From the IMG/VR virus record IMGVR_UViG_3300020477_000174, positions 1-20,016 of that record: DNA of 20,016 nucleotides; one strand, written 5' to 3'. Positions 6,610-17,165 of the stretch are shown piece by piece. Origin of the DNA: a virus. Positions within the stretch are counted from its first letter, which is position 1. Each line of letters opens with the position of its first letter. The notes under the pieces were generated by a model. It was not told where the DNA came from. It made no database searches and saw nothing but the letters and a program-made list of their open reading frames with translations. Both the position numbers and the translations under genes were made by a program.

Positions 6610-6806
6610 GATTCGCGCCTTCCCGAGTACTCCATTTCGGCATGCGCTGTGCATCTCGGGCAGGCATCCATGCCGCCGACCTGCTCCTCGTAGTGCTCGT
6701 TAATAACCTTGTCGCCGACGTTCACTTCTCTGATCCGCTGCACATATTTCTTCGGCAGCATGATGTAGCGCTCGCCGTGGCATGTCGGGCAGTCATCGAT
6801 CAGCAT
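6606..6806 (-). CDS. Small zinc-ribbon protein (66 aa)
   Basis: A 66-residue protein with two Cys pairs, CPTC near residue 6 and CPRC near residue 50, the spacing of a treble-clef or DnaJ-like zinc ribbon. The region between is Lys/Arg/Val rich (LPKKYVQRIREVNVGDKVI). The ATG at 6806 overlaps the methyltransferase stop by one base (TGATG), and its own stop overlaps the next GTG by 4 nt, so it is embedded in a coupled operon. Zinc ribbons of this kind often bind nucleic acid or proteins; its partner is not known. Confidence 0.72.
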   Translation of the reverse strand: MLIDDCPTCHGERYIMLPKKYVQRIREVNVGDKVINEHYEEQVGGMDACPRCTAHAEMEYSGRRES

Positions 6807-7882
6807 CAAAGCCGCTCCACCATCGCGATGCGCTTACCGATCCAGCGCATCACCGGCACCGCCATCGAATTGCCAAGCGATTTGTACCGGGGACCATCTG
6901 GACAATGCTCAGCGGGTTTGCCGCGATACGCTATCTGCGTGTAGTCGTCGGGGAACCCCTGCAACCGCTCGCACTCTCGCGGCGTCAGGCGGCGCACGGC
7001 GTAGTTATGTGCGACTGCCAAAGGGTTCTCTGCCTGCAGCGTCTCCGATAAGTCAGAGCCCCATGATGGGTATGACATATTGTGCTTAAACGTCAGCGGA
7101 ACCCCGCGACCGGTGCCGTCTTCGCTGGCGTCATATCCTTCGCCGCGCAGCGCGTGCGTAATTATTGTCTGACCTTTATCAGCCGTCGTATTGACGCCTT
7201 TAGCCATACGCGCAGTTAGTGGATTTGCTGTTTTCGGGAGACACTCCTCTACGAAGTCGCCGGGGAACTTGCTACACTGGTTAGCGCCGACCGTAAGGCT
7301 ATCGGCAACTCTTTTCCCCGCCTCTCGGCGCGGCGCAATATCCCCTGACAGGCTTTCGCGCTCAAAAAGAACCGCCGCGGCACGTCGCCAGTTTCCAAGA
7401 TGTCCGACAACGAAGACGCGACGCCGTCGCTGGGGTACTCCAAAGTTTTGAGCGTCAAGAACTCTGTAGCTGAACCCATACCCGAGTTCGACCAAGCCCC
7501 CGAGTATGGCACCAAAGTCCCGTCCTTTTCCTGATGACAGGACGCCGGGCACGTTCTCCCAAACCAGCCATCGGGGCCGCAATCTTTGAGCCAATCTAAG
7601 ATATTCGAGGGCCAAGTTACCGCGGTCGTCATCCAATCCTTCGCGGAGGCCGGCAATTGAGAAAGATTGGCAAGGTGTTCCTCCGACCAGAACGTCGATT
7701 GCATCATATTCATCTGCCTTGATTGTTGTAAAATCGCCATGCAGCGGCGTATCAGGCCAGCGCGCAGTCAGAACAGCGCGCGGGAACTTCTCGATTTCGG
7801 AAAAGAACGACGCCGACCAGTTAAGCGGCTCCCATGCAACCGTCGCAGCCTCTATACCGCTGCAGACAGACCCGTAAATCAA
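6806..7882 (-). CDS. DNA (cytosine-5-)-methyltransferase, orphan
   Basis: A 358-residue C5 cytosine methyltransferase using S-adenosylmethionine. Motifs in order: I GSVCSGIEAATVAW at residues 4-17, IV GGTPCQS at 67-73 with catalytic Cys71, VI WENVPG at 108-113, VIII QRRRRVF at 151-157, then a target-recognition region, IX RLTPRECERLQGFPDDY near 300, and X YKSLGNSMAVPV near 338. No partner restriction enzyme with a clear specificity domain is present, so it is probably an orphan phage enzyme that shields phage DNA from host restriction or alters gene expression. Target sequence cannot be read from the protein. It overlaps its upstream neighbour by 4 nt (ATGA). Confidence 0.95.
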   Translation of the reverse strand: MIYGSVCSGIEAATVAWEPLNWSASFFSEIEKFPRAVLTARWPDTPLHGDFTTIKADEYDAIDVLVGGTPCQSFSIAGLREGLDDDRGNLALEYLRLAQRLRPRWLVWENVPGVLSSGKGRDFGAILGGLVELGYGFSYRVLDAQNFGVPQRRRRVFVVGHLGNWRRAAAVLFERESLSGDIAPRREAGKRVADSLTVGANQCSKFPGDFVEECLPKTANPLTARMAKGVNTTADKGQTIITHALRGEGYDASEDGTGRGVPLTFKHNMSYPSWGSDLSETLQAENPLAVAHNYAVRRLTPRECERLQGFPDDYTQIAYRGKPAEHCPDGPRYKSLGNSMAVPVMRWIGKRIAMVERL

Positions 7883-8106
7883 TTTGACTGCCCCAGCCTG
7901 GCCGCACGATGCACCTTCTCCAGGTGCTCAGCAGTGCGATAGATGTCATGCTTCGAAGCTTGCTGGCGTATCGCATTAACGCTGCAAACGAAGAACGCCG
8001 CGATCGCCTCGGTCGGCACGCCAGACACATACATCTTGCGTAGCCTTTCGATGCTTTCGGCGTTCCAGCTTCGCCTTGGCTGCTTATCTATTCTTGTTCT
8101 TGGCAT
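7879..8106 (-). CDS. Small HTH (Myb/SANT or GcrA-like) protein (75 aa)
   Basis: A 75-residue protein whose centre, SWNAESIERLRKMYVSGV then TEAIAAFFVCSVNAIRQQASKH, has the W-x-x-x-x-x-x-x-L...G-x-x-x-x-x-IA...S-x-x-A-I-x-x-x-A layout of Myb/SANT or GcrA-like DNA-binding helices. It is Arg/Lys rich at both ends. It probably binds DNA as a regulator. It overlaps the upstream double-HTH gene by 19 nt and the methyltransferase start by 4 nt. Confidence 0.7.
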   Translation of the reverse strand: MPRTRIDKQPRRSWNAESIERLRKMYVSGVPTEAIAAFFVCSVNAIRQQASKHDIYRTAEHLEKVHRAARLGQSN

Positions 8107-8609
8107 TCATCCCTCACGATCTGCAGCCGATAACCAATGTTGCCGAGCACAGCCTCAAAGCTTTGCAGGGTCGGCGATCGGCGGTATCGCCACTCGCTAA
8201 CTGTCTTTTTCGATACGCCTGATCCCTCGACAACGTCACCGACAAGAAGCTTGTGCTCGTTTATGAGTTCGTAGAGGTCGCGGACCAGCTCAGGTGCGTT
8301 GTCAGGCACCTTGAGCTTGCCTGCGTAGCGATGAGCCCCGCGGCCCTTAGCCAGGTTGTCGATCGACCGCTTGCGGCTCTGCTGCGGATTACGCCGCGAT
8401 ACACAAGGCCGGAGCAGATCCTCTGGAGTGACGTTGAACACGCTCGACAGCCGAGACATGTGACCTGAGTGCATCTCAAGCTTGCCTGTTTCGAGTTGCC
8501 GCACGGTCCACTCGTCAATCCGGCTCGCCAATGCAAGCTCTGGCAGCGACCAGCCTTTGATACCGCGATATTTCACGATGCTATTTGGATGTTTCCACCT
8601 GCTAGGCAT
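8088..8609 (-). CDS. Transcription regulator with two XRE-type HTH domains
   Basis: A 173-residue protein. The first HTH, at about residues 18-65, reads GWSLPELALASRIDEWTVRQ then LETGKLEMHSGHMSRLSSVF and ends VTPEDLL. The second, at about 110-165, reads LLVGDVVEGSGVSKKTVSEW, RYRRSPTLQSFEAVLGNIGY and RLQIV. A basic linker (RRNPQQSRKRS) joins them. Two XRE-like units in one chain suggest binding to two half-sites as a monomer, or one unit specialised for protein contacts. It is the third gene from the divergent control region, so it probably takes part in the early or lysogenic switch. It overlaps the nuclease gene upstream by 8 nt. Confidence 0.82.
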   Translation of the reverse strand: MPSRWKHPNSIVKYRGIKGWSLPELALASRIDEWTVRQLETGKLEMHSGHMSRLSSVFNVTPEDLLRPCVSRRNPQQSRKRSIDNLAKGRGAHRYAGKLKVPDNAPELVRDLYELINEHKLLVGDVVEGSGVSKKTVSEWRYRRSPTLQSFEAVLGNIGYRLQIVRDECQEQE

Positions 8610-8970
8610 GGCGCAGCTCGATGAACTGCTGCAGAAAGTCGTGCGTGTCGTCGATCGAGCGGACTAAGCCGACGCGGCAACCCGCCTTGCGCAACTCAAG
8701 GTGCACTGTCTTTTGATTAGCTGACAGCCGACCTTTTGCCGTCTTGATTTCAAGCATGATCGGCGACCAGGTCGCATCGTCGTGCCACCAAGTGCGCTGC
8801 ACAAATATCTCAAGATCCGGCCAGCCAGCACGCATGCCCAGCGACTTCTGCAGCATGCGATACTGCACGCGGTGCTTGCCTTCGTTCGGGCTGTGATGCA
8901 CGACGCTGCCAGATGGCAGGACCGCCGCCAGGTAATTAACAATGCCGCGATGGATCTCGCGCTCAGACAT
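8602..8970 (-). CDS. VRR-NUC domain nuclease
   Basis: A 122-residue, single-domain nuclease, the usual length of phage VRR-NUC proteins. The family signature is complete: HHSPNEGKHR at residues 25-34, LGMRAGWPDLEIF at 44-56 with metal ligand Asp52, LEIK at 73-76 (Glu74 and Lys76), and GRLSANQ at 80-86 with Gln86. It belongs to the PD-(D/E)XK superfamily, related to FAN1 and Holliday-junction-type nucleases, and may resolve branched replication or recombination intermediates or cut host DNA. It overlaps the upstream Cro-like gene and the downstream regulator by 8 nt each. Confidence 0.92.
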   Translation of the reverse strand: MSEREIHRGIVNYLAAVLPSGSVVHHSPNEGKHRVQYRMLQKSLGMRAGWPDLEIFVQRTWWHDDATWSPIMLEIKTAKGRLSANQKTVHLELRKAGCRVGLVRSIDDTHDFLQQFIELRHA

Positions 8971-9148
8971 TGAAGTCGGCCATGCTGACCTCGCCGTCTG
9001 TCAGCACAAAGATCTTTTGCATCAGCGGCAGGCTCGGCATGCGAGATCCGCTGCAGAGCAGGCTTACTGCAGGCTGACTTATCCCCAGCCACCTGGCTGC
9101 TTCAGATTGCGTTAAGCTTCTGTTTTGTAACCATTCTGAGAGTTTCAT
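8963..9148 (-). CDS. Cro-like XRE regulator
   Basis: A 61-residue HTH protein counted from the ATG at 9148 (MKLSEWLQNRSLTQSEAARW). The HTH reads LTQSEAARWLGISQPAVSLL, followed by a short strand-forming end (GEVSMADFNV) like lambda Cro or small Xre regulators. A TTG 9 nt upstream could add three residues, but GGGAGG lies between them and very close to the ATG. It is the first gene of the leftward accessory operon and faces a rightward operon across about 100 nt, the classic position of one half of a lysis-lysogeny switch. Confidence 0.85.
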   Translation of the reverse strand: MKLSEWLQNRSLTQSEAARWLGISQPAVSLLCSGSRMPSLPLMQKIFVLTDGEVSMADFNV

Positions 9149-9251
9149 TCCTCCCAAATAAATTACTACAAGTTATCAATCAACAGACTTGCTTGACGCG
9201 TTGGTAGCATATCGGTAACAATCGTCTCTTAACGGTAACTTTAATCAAATA
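9149..9251. promoter_or_regulatory. Divergent control region with GGTAAC operators
   Basis: This gap separates leftward and rightward operons. On the plus strand TTGACG (9193-9198) is followed 18 bases later by AACAAT (9217-9222), a possible rightward promoter; the -10 match is modest. CGGTAAC occurs at 9213-9219 and again at 9233-9239, 20 bp apart (two helical turns), and a related AGTTATCAATC lies at 9171-9181 near the leftward start. These are candidate operators for the Cro-like protein or the XRE protein encoded at 9958. The leftward promoter is not clear; the AT-rich 9150-9185 stretch is its likely site. Confidence 0.55.
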
Positions 9252-9968
9252 ATGCGAGGGAGAATGCCACTACGGAAATATAATATAGACGACACAGCGC
9301 CCGCTGATGTCGTCGAATTATTCAAATCAATTGACCCGGTATACGACAAAAACATACGTCGGCTGGTCACAACGTACCTGGCGAGCGGAGTTGCTGCACC
9401 AGGCGGCGGAACGACCGACCTGCGCACACGAATGCCGATAGATTTGATTCAAGCTTACGGGCTGTGTAGCCCGCATGCCGTCACCCGCGCGCCAATAAAT
9501 TTAAACGTGCATGATAGGCTAGATTACGCGAGGCTGATCAGGAACCCTTACATAATCAGGGTTATTCAATGCTCGGTCGCAGCTTATTTTAACGAACTGC
9601 CGCTAACCCGCGAGATCCTGTCAAACCTCGTTAGGCATTATATCCCAGGTGGTCTTGTAAAAGGTGTTGAAATTGGACTTGAAAAGGGGTGGCTCAAATT
9701 TGTGGATGAAGACGGCTGGCCTGACGACATGTGCGGTATGCCAATTCGCGCAGGCGATAAGCACCTTCGACCGACACGCATCGGAATATATAGAACGATC
9801 GAGGCAATCACCTGGATTATGGATTGCACAGCACGTGTCAGGGCAATGCTGAACAACGACGACATGCACATCAGTTACAACACCTTCCGCTCACGCTGGC
9901 CGCATGAAACCGTCAATATCGAAGGCGTGACTGCCAATTCCGAATGGAAATTATGGGGTGAAGCTTAA
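9252..9968 (+). CDS. Unknown protein, possible winged-helix regulator (238 aa)
   Basis: First gene of the rightward operon, 238 residues from ATG 9252 or 234 from ATG 9264, which has GAGGGAG very close upstream. I do not recognise the family. The region at about residues 118-183 has a pattern like a winged helix: LPLTREILSNLVRHY, then GVEIGLEKGWLKFVDEDG, then HLRPTRIGIYRTI, which resembles the wing and trailing 'R-P-T-x-x-G' of MarR-type proteins. The N-terminal half (YNIDDTAPADVVELF, FKSIDPVYDKNIRRLV) is unknown. Its place immediately behind the switch suggests a regulator or replication function. It overlaps or abuts the XRE gene that follows. Confidence 0.7.
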   Translation: MRGRMPLRKYNIDDTAPADVVELFKSIDPVYDKNIRRLVTTYLASGVAAPGGGTTDLRTRMPIDLIQAYGLCSPHAVTRAPINLNVHDRLDYARLIRNPYIIRVIQCSVAAYFNELPLTREILSNLVRHYIPGGLVKGVEIGLEKGWLKFVDEDGWPDDMCGMPIRAGDKHLRPTRIGIYRTIEAITWIMDCTARVRAMLNNDDMHISYNTFRSRWPHETVNIEGVTANSEWKLWGEA

Positions 9969-10407
9969 AATGTGTGGGCATGCGTATAAAGCTTTAAAAG
10001 ACCTCCCCGCCAGCCTGCGAGCAGCTCGCCAGTATCACAAGAAGAGTGGCGTAGAAGTCGCTGAGGCACTCGCAATGTCGCCAGCAGCCTATCGTCGCTA
10101 CGAACGTGGCGAGACAATGCCTTCTGCCGGTGTGATCTTGCAGCTCAGCGAGCTGTACGGTTGCTCGCCGACTGCGGTGATGCGATCCGGCGGCGTTGAG
10201 GCTGACAAACCGGAAAGCGCGTCGAAGCACAGCGTCGAGCTAAACCTTGAAGCTGGCGACACTTTCACAATCACAATCAACGCAACCGCCGCCGCAGCGC
10301 AGGCAGAAGAAGCGGCAGAAGAAGCGGCAAAAGAGTTCTACGAACCGCCATTCAAACCGCGGTCAGAGCCGCGTTTGACGACGGCAAAATCAAAGAAGCG
10401 TGCATAA
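9958..10407 (+). CDS. XRE-family repressor-like protein
   Basis: A 149-residue protein from GTG 9958, or 145 from ATG 9970; the choice is open because neither has a strong ribosome site. The HTH lies at about residues 17-65: LRAARQYHKKSGVEVAEALA, MSPAAYRRYERGETMPSAGV and LQLSELYGCSPTAVM. The C-terminal half has VELNLEAGDTFTITINATAA and an Ala/Glu coiled segment, possibly for oligomerisation, with a basic tail (SKKRA). There is no LexA/CI-type protease domain, so induction would not be by RecA-stimulated self-cleavage. It is a good candidate for the immunity repressor or a second Cro-like factor. Confidence 0.82.
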   Translation: MKLKMCGHAYKALKDLPASLRAARQYHKKSGVEVAEALAMSPAAYRRYERGETMPSAGVILQLSELYGCSPTAVMRSGGVEADKPESASKHSVELNLEAGDTFTITINATAAAAQAEEAAEEAAKEFYEPPFKPRSEPRLTTAKSKKRA

Positions 10408-10454
10408 CCTCTAGTATCGTTAAATAACTATAATGTGATGTTTACCTACCAAAG

Positions 10455-10483
10455 TTGACGTTTCTGTATTGTTCCTGTAGAAA
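10455..10483 (+). promoter_or_regulatory. Promoter for recombination operon
   Basis: TTGACG (10455-10460), a 17-bp spacer and TAGAAA (10478-10483) form a good sigma70-type promoter in the 107-nt gap after the XRE gene. AAGGGA at 10501-10506 then provides a ribosome site eight bases before the GTG start at 10515. The rest of 10408-10454 is AT-rich without further recognisable sites. Confidence 0.6.
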
Positions 10484-10514
10484 GGTGCGTTACAAGCACT
10501 AAGGGAACTGAAAC

Positions 10515-11444
10515 GTGACATTCGACGATTTACCGAGCTGGGCTGAGCGCTTTAATTTCTCTGCGCACAGCCCCTCGGGAACCTCCCGACCAAATTGCAA
10601 AGAATTTTTTGAGAAGGCTGTCGCAAGACCGCTGCGTTTATACGCGCCTGCCGGTTGCCGAATGATTGCAGGCAAGGTCGCCGAGCAATACAGCAAGGAT
10701 GTCGTGATTGCTGGCGATGATATGAGCACAGCCTTCCGCGCTGCGGTAGCCAGCTTCGACGAGCACAAGCCGCTGCCGCACGACCCAAACGATATCGTGC
10801 GCTGGAGCAATATCCGCGACGACATCTACGAGATCCCCCTCAGCAAAGCAGAGAAGGACGCTGGTGCGCTTGCCGCGTCGGGGTCAATACTAGAGCTGAC
10901 CTGCAGACATACGGCTGAGGGCCTCTCTGAGGCGACTAGAGAGGCTAACCAGGTCACAGATGGTCGCTGGGTTTCGGTCCAGCTCGATGACGTGGAGCTG
11001 GACTTCATCGGCGAGATCGATGTCGAGGCCAATGGCGTCGTCGAAATCAAAACGAAATGGCCGACCCTGTCTGCGAAATCAAAGCGCGGCTGGCACGTCA
11101 ATAGTCTGCCTGCCAGGCCCGACCCGAACCATGTGCAGCAGGTAGCGCTGTACTGGAAGTGGCTGCGACGGCAATCCGAAAACGTGCCGGTGAAGCTCGT
11201 CTACGCGAATTGCAAAGGGTTCCGCGTTTTCGATAGCCGCGACTGCGAAGAGCTATCGGTCGCGAACCTGGAGAAAGCACTCGATCGCATGCGGGTGGTC
11301 GCGCGAGCCCGCGAACGAATGATGCAGATGGCGGGTTCGATCGACGAGCTGCTGCAGATGGTTCCGCCAGATTTCAGTCACTTCATGTGGAAGGACGTGC
11401 CGCCTGAGTATCGCGCGGCGGCGGAAAAGAAATGGGGGATCTGA
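10515..11444 (+). CDS. PD-(D/E)XK exonuclease (RecB/YqaJ/Cas4-like)
   Basis: A 309-residue nuclease with a GTG start supported by AAGGGA. The catalytic core shows FIGEIDVEANGVVEIKTKW at residues 164-182: Asp169 and the Glu177-x-Lys179 pair are the PD-(D/E)XK ligands. HVQQVALYWKW at 206-216 holds the Q-x-x-x-Y motif (Gln209, Tyr213) found in RecB, YqaJ and Cas4-like nucleases. An upstream helix with AGKVAEQYSKD matches the substrate-side region of that family. Together with the annealing protein encoded at 12248 it probably works as a two-part recombinase, resecting DNA ends so that single strands can be annealed. The four Cys of a Cas4 iron-sulfur cluster are absent. Confidence 0.88.
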   Translation: MTFDDLPSWAERFNFSAHSPSGTSRPNCKEFFEKAVARPLRLYAPAGCRMIAGKVAEQYSKDVVIAGDDMSTAFRAAVASFDEHKPLPHDPNDIVRWSNIRDDIYEIPLSKAEKDAGALAASGSILELTCRHTAEGLSEATREANQVTDGRWVSVQLDDVELDFIGEIDVEANGVVEIKTKWPTLSAKSKRGWHVNSLPARPDPNHVQQVALYWKWLRRQSENVPVKLVYANCKGFRVFDSRDCEELSVANLEKALDRMRVVARARERMMQMAGSIDELLQMVPPDFSHFMWKDVPPEYRAAAEKKWGI

Positions 11445-11656
11445 TGTTTACAAAGCAAGACCTGGAGACGGTCGTAAGCTGGCTTGAAGGCCGGAAAGAT
11501 TGGCTTGAAACCGAACGCCTGGTGATCGAGCGCGGTGATAATTTTTCTGCAACAAACGGCAAATACTACCGCGTTGAAGACATCACGCGCGAGGTATCCG
11601 CGATCCGCTCCTCGATCAAAACAGCTCGCGATCAGATGGAGTTGGCAAATGAATAA
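11444..11656 (+). CDS. Small coiled-coil protein (70 aa)
   Basis: A 70-residue protein from ATG 11444 (MFTKQDLETVVSWLEGRKDW), which overlaps the nuclease TGA by one base and has GGGGGA five bases upstream. A start at 11432 is possible but would lie inside the nuclease gene and lack that site. It is mostly charged helix, with a short NFSATNGKYYRVEDITREVS segment in the middle. No domain recognised. Its position suggests an accessory to recombination or regulation. Confidence 0.65.
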   Translation: MFTKQDLETVVSWLEGRKDWLETERLVIERGDNFSATNGKYYRVEDITREVSAIRSSIKTARDQMELANE

Positions 11657-15405: not shown

Positions 15406-15426
15406 AAAACCTGACGGTCATGCAAC
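15406..15426 (+). repeat. Direct repeat, left copy (candidate Int arm site)
   Basis: A 21-bp element with core CCTGACGGTCATGCAAC, identical to the copy at 15701-15721 and in the same orientation. It lies 91 bp from the tRNA-derived core, a distance typical of integrase arm-type sites. The role is inferred from placement. Confidence 0.85.
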
Positions 15427-15517: not shown

Positions 15518-15567
15518 TGGTTGCGGGGGTTGGATTTGAACCAACGACCTTCAGGTTATGAGCCTGA
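15518..15567 (-). other. attP core: 3' fragment of initiator tRNA-fMet (CAT)
   Basis: Read on the minus strand from 15567, the 50 nt match the 3' part of initiator tRNA: anticodon arm TCAGG-CTCATAA-CCTGA (anticodon CAT), variable loop AGGTC, T arm GTTGG-TTCAAAT-CCAAC, then the 3' acceptor strand CCCCGCA, A73 and CCA. Upstream of the anticodon stem the sequence leaves the tRNA pattern (no D arm or 5' acceptor), so it is not a functional gene. Such a piece next to int is the identity segment that rebuilds the host tRNA after integration. The anticodon stem has AGG/CCT rather than the usual GGG/CCC, a variant I recall from alphaproteobacteria. Confidence 0.88.
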
Positions 15568-15700: not shown

Positions 15701-15721
15701 AAAACCTGACGGTCATGCAAC
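15701..15721 (+). repeat. Direct repeat, right copy (candidate Int arm site)
   Basis: The second copy of the 21-bp element (core CCTGACGGTCATGCAAC), 133 bp to the other side of the tRNA fragment and in the same orientation as the left copy. Its last nine bases are also the final codons of the metallophosphoesterase gene, so the site has been kept despite coding overlap. Confidence 0.85.
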
Positions 15722-16753
15722 ATTTGCACGCTTCCAGGCAAGGTAGTCAGACGCCTCGGCAAGGTCAACGAAGCACGTCACAAAGCGCGCCTCGCTGTCA
15801 GCCTGCGGATCGATCACCGCGCAGACTGTGGCACCATGCTGCTGGCTCGCGTAGCCGAGCTTATCAGCATAGTCGTCGATGTACTTGTAGCCTCGCGCGC
15901 GAACTAGCCAATAGACGAACTCCCGGTGTGCGTTCTCCTCTTGGTGGATTGCCCAGTTATGCTTGTGACCACTGGCATATATATGTGCATCAGTTGTTGT
16001 CGTCGCTGCGCGCTGGTTAGAGTGCAGGGAGTTCCACATTGAATGACCAGGGAAGTCGTGCGCGGTAATGATCCGACACTCCCGATTGTTTTCGAACCGG
16101 ATCTTCCAGTGTGCTGACCAATCCATCATGGGGATTTTCTGCACGTTCATGCGGCGCAAAATCTCCGCGCCTTCGCCCCACGCATCATGGTTGCCGATCA
16201 GGATCGCGAGCCATCGCAAACCCGTGTCATTGAGGAACCAATCCGCGAGCCTGCGAGCTGTCGTGATCGACTGATCGCTTTGCGCGTGCAGGCGCATCAA
16301 CCTGCCAGGCCAATCGCCGTCTGTGGTGTCGCCTAAATTTACGCAGTACATGCCAGGCTGCGTCATCAGCTCAATGTCTCTCCGCAGCAGAGAGATGTTG
16401 CAGCCATTGCTATCTATGTGCGGATCACCAACGAAGCAGAGGCCCATTGGCTCATCGTTCTTGACTTTGACCGTGAACCATTTGCGAGCCGCTGCTGCCC
16501 GCGTGCGCTTTTCAAAGCGCCGCTCCATCGTGTCGAGAATATCCTCGACGGGGATGTCATCACTTGGGAAGGTCGGCAGCTCGATCTCTGCTTCGGGCTC
16601 AGCTTTGAACCGCTGCTTCGCCGCGCTCACGCGACTTTCAAAAGTCGAGCGGGGAATATCGAGCATCCGCGCAGCCGCCGCAACATTACCCGCCTGGTCA
16701 ACAGCGGCGAGCGCTTCGCGCAGAACCTCGTCGGTCAGCCTATGCGCTGCCAT
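15713..16753 (-). CDS. HTH-metallophosphoesterase
   Basis: A 346-residue calcineurin-like phosphoesterase counted from ATG 16753 (MAAHRLTDEVLREAL). An earlier in-frame start at 16855 would read through the lysozyme gene and is less likely. The N-terminal 50 residues form a Fis/HTH-like helix pair (NVAAAARMLDIPRSTFESRV). The metal site follows: GDPH 109-112, GD 141-142, GNHD 187-190, H232, and GHKH 262-265, complete for a two-metal enzyme. The HTH plus phosphoesterase layout recurs in marine phages, where it may act on nucleic acid ends or nucleotides; the substrate is unknown. It is the last gene of the late operon and overlaps the endolysin stop by 14 nt. Confidence 0.88.
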   Translation of the reverse strand: MAAHRLTDEVLREALAAVDQAGNVAAAARMLDIPRSTFESRVSAAKQRFKAEPEAEIELPTFPSDDIPVEDILDTMERRFEKRTRAAAARKWFTVKVKNDEPMGLCFVGDPHIDSNGCNISLLRRDIELMTQPGMYCVNLGDTTDGDWPGRLMRLHAQSDQSITTARRLADWFLNDTGLRWLAILIGNHDAWGEGAEILRRMNVQKIPMMDWSAHWKIRFENNRECRIITAHDFPGHSMWNSLHSNQRAATTTTDAHIYASGHKHNWAIHQEENAHREFVYWLVRARGYKYIDDYADKLGYASQQHGATVCAVIDPQADSEARFVTCFVDLAEASDYLAWKRANVA

Positions 16754-17165
16754 ATCGGATCTTGAGCTGCAGGCGCTCGGCACGGTTCGGCACCTGCCTA
16801 GCAAATAAACTGTCGAGCAGCTCGTCAGCCGCCTGGTCGTAGTTGCCCTCCGCAAGTGCTGCCAGCATGCGTTCGAATTTCGACAGCCTGGTGATGCCGA
16901 GCTGAAAGGCGAGCTGCACGACGACAGACGCGCGCACGTCGTCGAGCCCGTCGAACCATTCGAATCGGCTGCGCACCTCCTCGGTCGTGCGCATGATATC
17001 GTTTCGCAGCAGGTAGTCAGCCTCAGCCTCGGTGATACCTATGCCGCCGTTGCTATCAATATTACGACCATAGCCGATCGTGTGCGCGCCAGCGGTGCAC
17101 ATGTAGCAGTGCTCAGAGAAGCCTTCCTCGGCCTTCAGATCGTCAGCGACTTCGTCGAGGAACAT
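16740..17165 (-). CDS. Endolysin, GH24 lysozyme
   Basis: A 141-residue muramidase, somewhat shorter than T4 lysozyme (164). The catalytic pattern E-x8-(D/C)-x5-T is exact: Glu14, Cys23 and Thr29 in EEGFSEHCYMCTAGAHTIGYG-type sequence (residues 13 onward), with Cys at the position that is Asp in T4, a known variant in this family. The helical remainder includes VVVQLAFQLGITRLSKFERM. It cleaves peptidoglycan at the end of infection. There is no signal peptide or SAR helix, so release depends on the 3TM holin encoded directly upstream, which overlaps by 23 nt. Confidence 0.9.
   Translation of the reverse strand: MFLDEVADDLKAEEGFSEHCYMCTAGAHTIGYGRNIDSNGGIGITEAEADYLLRNDIMRTTEEVRSRFEWFDGLDDVRASVVVQLAFQLGITRLSKFERMLAALAEGNYDQAADELLDSLFARQVPNRAERLQLKIRYGSA

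Follow-up and report, generated by a model that had tools for sequence, protein, structure and literature searches.

Genes and features around the half-tRNA segment

The window, by which we mean the whole 20,016-bp stretch of DNA analyzed, coincides with the complete virus record, a linear contig. It carries genes of temperate tailed phages, including those for the terminase subunits, a head-to-tail connector, a holin of the GTA_holin_3TM family, and a lysozyme, as well as genes for HTH regulators, a cytosine methylase, and a VRR-NUC nuclease. The methylase is a phage-encoded C-5 cytosine DNA methylase at positions 6806–7882 (PF00145, 9e-57). The genes for the terminase and the connector point to a virion of the podovirus type. 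Among these genes lies a 50-nt segment with the sequence of the 3′ half of a tRNA gene (Table 1). The start of the integrase gene int lies 181 nt beyond the CCA of this half-tRNA on the same strand.

Table 1 Features of the attachment region in the window
Feature	Position	Strand	Basis
attP core: final 50 nt of an initiator tRNA gene, from the anticodon stem-loop to CCA	15518..15567	-	Sequence; 49-nt core exact in four complete initiator genes; in L002 the same place holds an initiator half whose T-stem differs
Anticodon loop CTCATAA, 7 nt flanked by the inverted repeats CAGG/CCTG; likely region of strand exchange	15556..15562	-	Predicted crossover position
Putative P-arm site, GTTGCATGACCGTCAGGTTT	15702..15721	-	20-bp direct repeat flanking the core; repeat and spacing kept in L002; predicted integrase binding
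Putative P′-arm site, other copy of GTTGCATGACCGTCAGGTTT	15407..15426	-	Direct repeat, kept in L002; predicted integrase binding
int, tyrosine integrase, 424 aa	14062..15336	-	PF00589 4e-15; phrog_1 7e-33
DNA-repair-exonuclease-like gene, phrog_7339, on the opposite side of attP from int	15713..16855	-	Syntenic homologue adjoins attP in L002

The segment is half of an initiator tRNA gene

Read on the minus strand from 15567 to 15518, the segment is TCAGGCTCATAACCTGAAGGTCGTTGGTTCAAATCCAACCCCCGCAACCA and comprises, in this order, the anticodon stem-loop, the variable loop, the T-arm, the 3′ acceptor strand, and CCA, with the anticodon CAT at 15560–15558. The match to tRNA is exactly 50 nt long, as the adjacent upstream base (A) is no longer tRNA-like. 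Neither ARAGORN nor Rfam finds a complete tRNA in the window, an observation that the preliminary description had named beforehand as one that would speak against it.

A 49-nt core is identical in 4 of 385 alphaproteobacterial genomes, and in each of them it forms the 3′ portion of a full CAT tRNA gene. Judged by the sequence, chance cannot be the source of an exact match of this length, and an alphaproteobacterial origin of the half-tRNA is supported. The four source genes start with CGCGGGG and end with CCCCGCAACCA (CCCCGCA-ACCA), and the C1xA72 mismatch is present. This mismatch, with C1 and A72 unpaired, is a mark of initiator tRNA; because the source genes combine it with CAT, they encode initiator rather than elongator tRNAs. 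The preliminary description had placed the 3′ half of tRNA-fMet at this position and proposed an alphaproteobacterial initiator tRNA gene as the type of target; its coordinates and identity are right to the base, and the type of target agrees with the four complete genes.

Direct repeats flank the core

The two 20-bp copies of GTTGCATGACCGTCAGGTTT enclose the core, whereas the longest repeat found in shuffled window flanks was 10. Viral contig L002 encodes an integrase 75% identical to that of the window and has the same gene order. When the two are aligned, two blocks besides the core are conserved, and both are the repeat copies, which measure 20–21 bp. Several distant relatives (L013, L058, L102, L107, and L225) each have a flanking repeat of their own, located about −133 to −146 and +47 to +69; in shuffled flanks, repeats reached 11 at most. 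The same test detected no flanking repeat in relatives L012, L064, and L217. By its sequence, the repeat–core–repeat layout corresponds to P arm, core, and P′ arm, and the integrase would bind the arms.

The 3′ half of an initiator gene occupies the same place in L002, where the T-stem is GCAGG/CCTGC as against GTTGG/CCAAC in the window. Because both strands of the stem have changed and pairing is kept, the core appears to track host tRNA genes. These paired changes also bear on the origin of the segment. Phages often carry tRNA-Met genes, and the segment might be such a gene in decay, or what an imprecise excision left behind, with no role in integration. However, the segment stops at the anticodon stem with its 3′ end kept exactly, repeats flank it, and the half-gene stands in the same place beside int in dozens of contigs, which together with the T-stem changes makes such an origin extremely improbable.

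Being a fragment, the contig could in principle end near a prophage junction, in which case the segment would be the attR or attL of an integrated prophage. This is largely refuted by the phage genes that flank the segment, which span at least 4.4 kb in one direction and 15.5 kb in the other, and the repeat and the synteny with L002 likewise extend to both sides; we give this possibility hardly any credence. Since the same repeat and phage DNA conserved in L002 stand on both flanks, the segment points to the unintegrated form with an intact attP, as the preliminary description had claimed. Phage-specific sequence lies to the left of the tRNA match, which starts in the 5′ strand of the anticodon stem. 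From this starting point, and by the established behavior of tRNA-integrating phages, a crossover in the anticodon loop is most likely.

The integrase lacks Arg I and has an arginine at K+4

The window integrase fits the tyrosine recombinase family profile PF00589, and its predicted fold does likewise (AlphaFold model and Foldseek). It keeps the catalytic residues K286, H357, R360, and H390 and the nucleophile Y400. In its box I, TTGVSFGEHSA, Ser247 takes the place of the arginine (Arg I) found in relatives; the same site is Ser in L002 and L003 and Ala in L004. The PF00589 homology stands, and the canonical catalytic set is incomplete. This missing arginine and the repeats flanking the core go beyond the preliminary description.

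Arg I is conserved in nearly all tyrosine recombinases, and its replacement by Ser247 would fit an inactive integrase with attP as a relic. Yet among the three divergent integrase copies of the window, L002, and L004, pS is 0.69–0.80 and pN 0.15–0.19; with nonsynonymous change (dN) so far below synonymous change (dS), the integrase is under strong purifying selection. The other catalytic residues are all kept, all 30 distinct relatives without Arg I have an arginine at K+4, and IntDOT works although its canonical Arg I position lacks the arginine (PMC8138268). A relic is therefore very unlikely.

The K+4 residue of the window integrase is Arg290, four residues after the catalytic Lys286. We compared 187 distinct aligned integrases, 30 without and 157 with Arg I. 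An arginine at K+4 (K-x3-R-x-R) is present in 30/30 of the former versus 11/157 of the latter, several of these 11 by gap placement. The integrase of L016, with His at the Arg I site, shows no arginine at K+4 in the MAFFT alignment used for the tree, and its case is uncertain. The integrases of L016 and L055, both beside an initiator half-gene, have His or Asp at the Arg I site and sit on long branches of unsure placement.

Phylogenetically, the three-member window clade is nested within Arg I integrases (99% SH-aLRT for a 12-row clade). A second group without Arg I, with the motif FTG[SA]ANELQGLQW and grouped with L055, lies far from it, and the tree requires a minimum of three changes. Integrases that lack Arg I and have an arginine at K+4 occur in at least two lineages. 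We infer from the sequences, and by analogy with IntDOT in principle, that the catalytic arginine has been relocated, Arg290 in the β2–β3 hairpin standing in for Arg I. We also lean toward the view that Arg I was lost from box I at least twice among initiator-tRNA phages, in the window clade and in the FTG[SA]ANELQGLQW clade, and that the K+4 arginine in the hairpin took over each time. If Arg290 is catalytic, this would be a clean convergent case of an active-site residue shifted within an otherwise conserved enzyme, and motif filters demanding Arg I would discard genuine integrases. The AlphaFold model has a mean pLDDT of 75 and predicts an N-terminal β-sheet/helix domain of the arm-binding type; residues 285–289 in the hairpin fall under pLDDT 50, so we claim no distances for Arg290.

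A further set of integrases, represented by L021, L017, L034, L072, and their relatives, has GGFRK instead of the usual HxLRH, and Arg I is missing as well. This group is large and mostly associated with initiator tRNA.

Proposed integration into initiator tRNA genes

In the proposed course of integration, the integrase would bind two kinds of site, namely the arm repeats to either side of the core and the CAGG/CCTG inverted repeat that belongs to the anticodon stem. Strands would be exchanged within the anticodon loop of the host's initiator tRNA gene, and the 5′ half from the host would become continuous with the 3′ half brought by the phage. The attL side would retain a whole initiator tRNA gene under its own promoter, and attR would be marked by the host 3′ half that had been displaced. 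An essential gene would thus survive integration because attP restores its 3′ half. The anatomy and tRNA identity of the segment, the flanking repeats and their conservation, the recurrence beside integrases, and the purifying selection on the integrase are direct observations. Taken together, it is very probable that the window derives from a temperate tailed phage of an alphaproteobacterium, that the segment is an intact attP core with putative arm sites, and that the integration explanation holds as a whole; its inferred parts are the crossover point, integrase binding, and the replacement of Arg I by Arg290.

Candidates for prophages with a related integrase at this segment, which the preliminary description had proposed to look for, were seen among distant relatives, but none belonged to the window's own clade. 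In L023, a complete initiator tRNA at the contig edge is joined to phage DNA with its int, the arrangement expected of an attL. In L137 (Silicibacter lacuscaerulensis ITI-1157, 6956–11480), a 4.4-kb element that encodes an integrase of its own is bounded by a complete initiator gene and by a half-gene whose T-stem differs from that of the complete gene. The 385 sampled alphaproteobacterial genomes contain no integrated copies of the window's integrase clade (window, L002/L003, and L004), and two scans of public genome contigs found no close integrase relatives, the profile scan giving distant ones only. When isolated phages were searched at the protein level with the window integrase, none of the matches listed exceeded 31% identity.

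The initiator site is in common use

The preliminary description regarded this integration site as uncommon, which does not hold. Scanning viral contigs by exact pattern, we found at least 119 stretches with the initiator half-gene sequence. Among the 119 listed, 34 are complete tRNAs, 82 are partial, and 3 are too close to an edge to call. A same-strand integrase lies within 2.6 kb in 46 of the 49 partial copies (119 listed) with 2.6 kb of downstream sequence, as against 1/49 for the other strand. Rhodobacteraceae genomes contain other integrases with an initiator half-gene downstream. Pairs of integrase and half-gene like that of L137 recur in many Rhodobacteraceae genomes (L131–L150). Several stretches, L045, L052, L078, and L093 among them, have a complete initiator tRNA near the viral contig edge and, within the stretch covered, none of these integrase families; a different integrase may serve there, with the stretches being the ends of prophages.

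The initiator tRNA site is widespread, but the papers found rarely identify it as initiator. Alphaproteobacterial viruses thus make heavy use of a gene indispensable to the cell as their docking site. It is established practice to match half-tRNAs to hosts (PMC3861242), and the half-gene matches are useful for broad host assignment. The attP described here is another case of a common kind, and the integrase variant is the more interesting part.

Relatives at another site had also been named as an outcome that would count against the preliminary description. No close relative uses one, but distant relatives (36% identity) do, such as L130 at tRNA-Asn. Within the window's wide integrase family, the initiator half is present in 17/57 and any tRNA, including Asn and others, in 36/57. 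The second group without Arg I was assembled by protein alone, with no tRNA selection, and members with at least 1.5 kb upstream were counted; 42/50 have the initiator half and 0/50 another tRNA. In these sets, loss of Arg I and use of the initiator site are truly associated. With only three state changes, the tree has too few to test the association. We do not argue for a causal link, as many Arg I integrases share the site and independent events are few. L379, the single match in the 385 alphaproteobacterial genomes for prophages of the Arg-I-less group, was rejected, its integrase having the canonical Arg I.

Comparison with known systems

Roseophage CRP-3, of the HMO-2011 type, was shown to integrate at tRNA-Met(CAT) (PMC6918029), and the CRP-3 sequence we examined has an attP half-gene ending in TCCCGCAACCA, which is of the initiator type. 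Like the window phage, CRP-3 is a temperate alphaproteobacterial phage with a tyrosine integrase and an att core over the 3′ end of an initiator-type tRNA-Met. However, its integrase is hardly related and has an arginine at the Arg I position, which rules it out as proof of an active enzyme lacking Arg I. Moreover, its tRNA match begins after the anticodon loop, and its half-gene lies about 1.7 kb from int.

Many Paracoccus prophages also sit in tRNA-Met(CAT); they likewise enter alphaproteobacterial CAT tRNA genes, and most of them have a tyrosine integrase (PMC6536676). Unlike the window phage, they are siphoviruses of about 39–61 kb, and their site is labeled tRNA-Met with initiator or elongator unspecified. 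As far as the available text of both precedents extends, tRNA-Met is the only label given to the site (PMC6918029, PMC6536676).

IntDOT of CTnDOT, in the IntCTnDOT subgroup, has no Arg I in box I, and a downstream arginine does its job (PMC8138268). The window integrase similarly combines a box I without Arg I with a predicted N-terminal arm-binding domain. IntDOT, however, belongs to a Bacteroidetes conjugative element, and the likeness is one of principle. The closest structural match of the predicted fold by Foldseek is Tn1549 Int (6en2, 6emz), which, unlike the window integrase, has Arg I at its canonical position (R225 according to the entry titles) and is transposase-like rather than a phage integrase.
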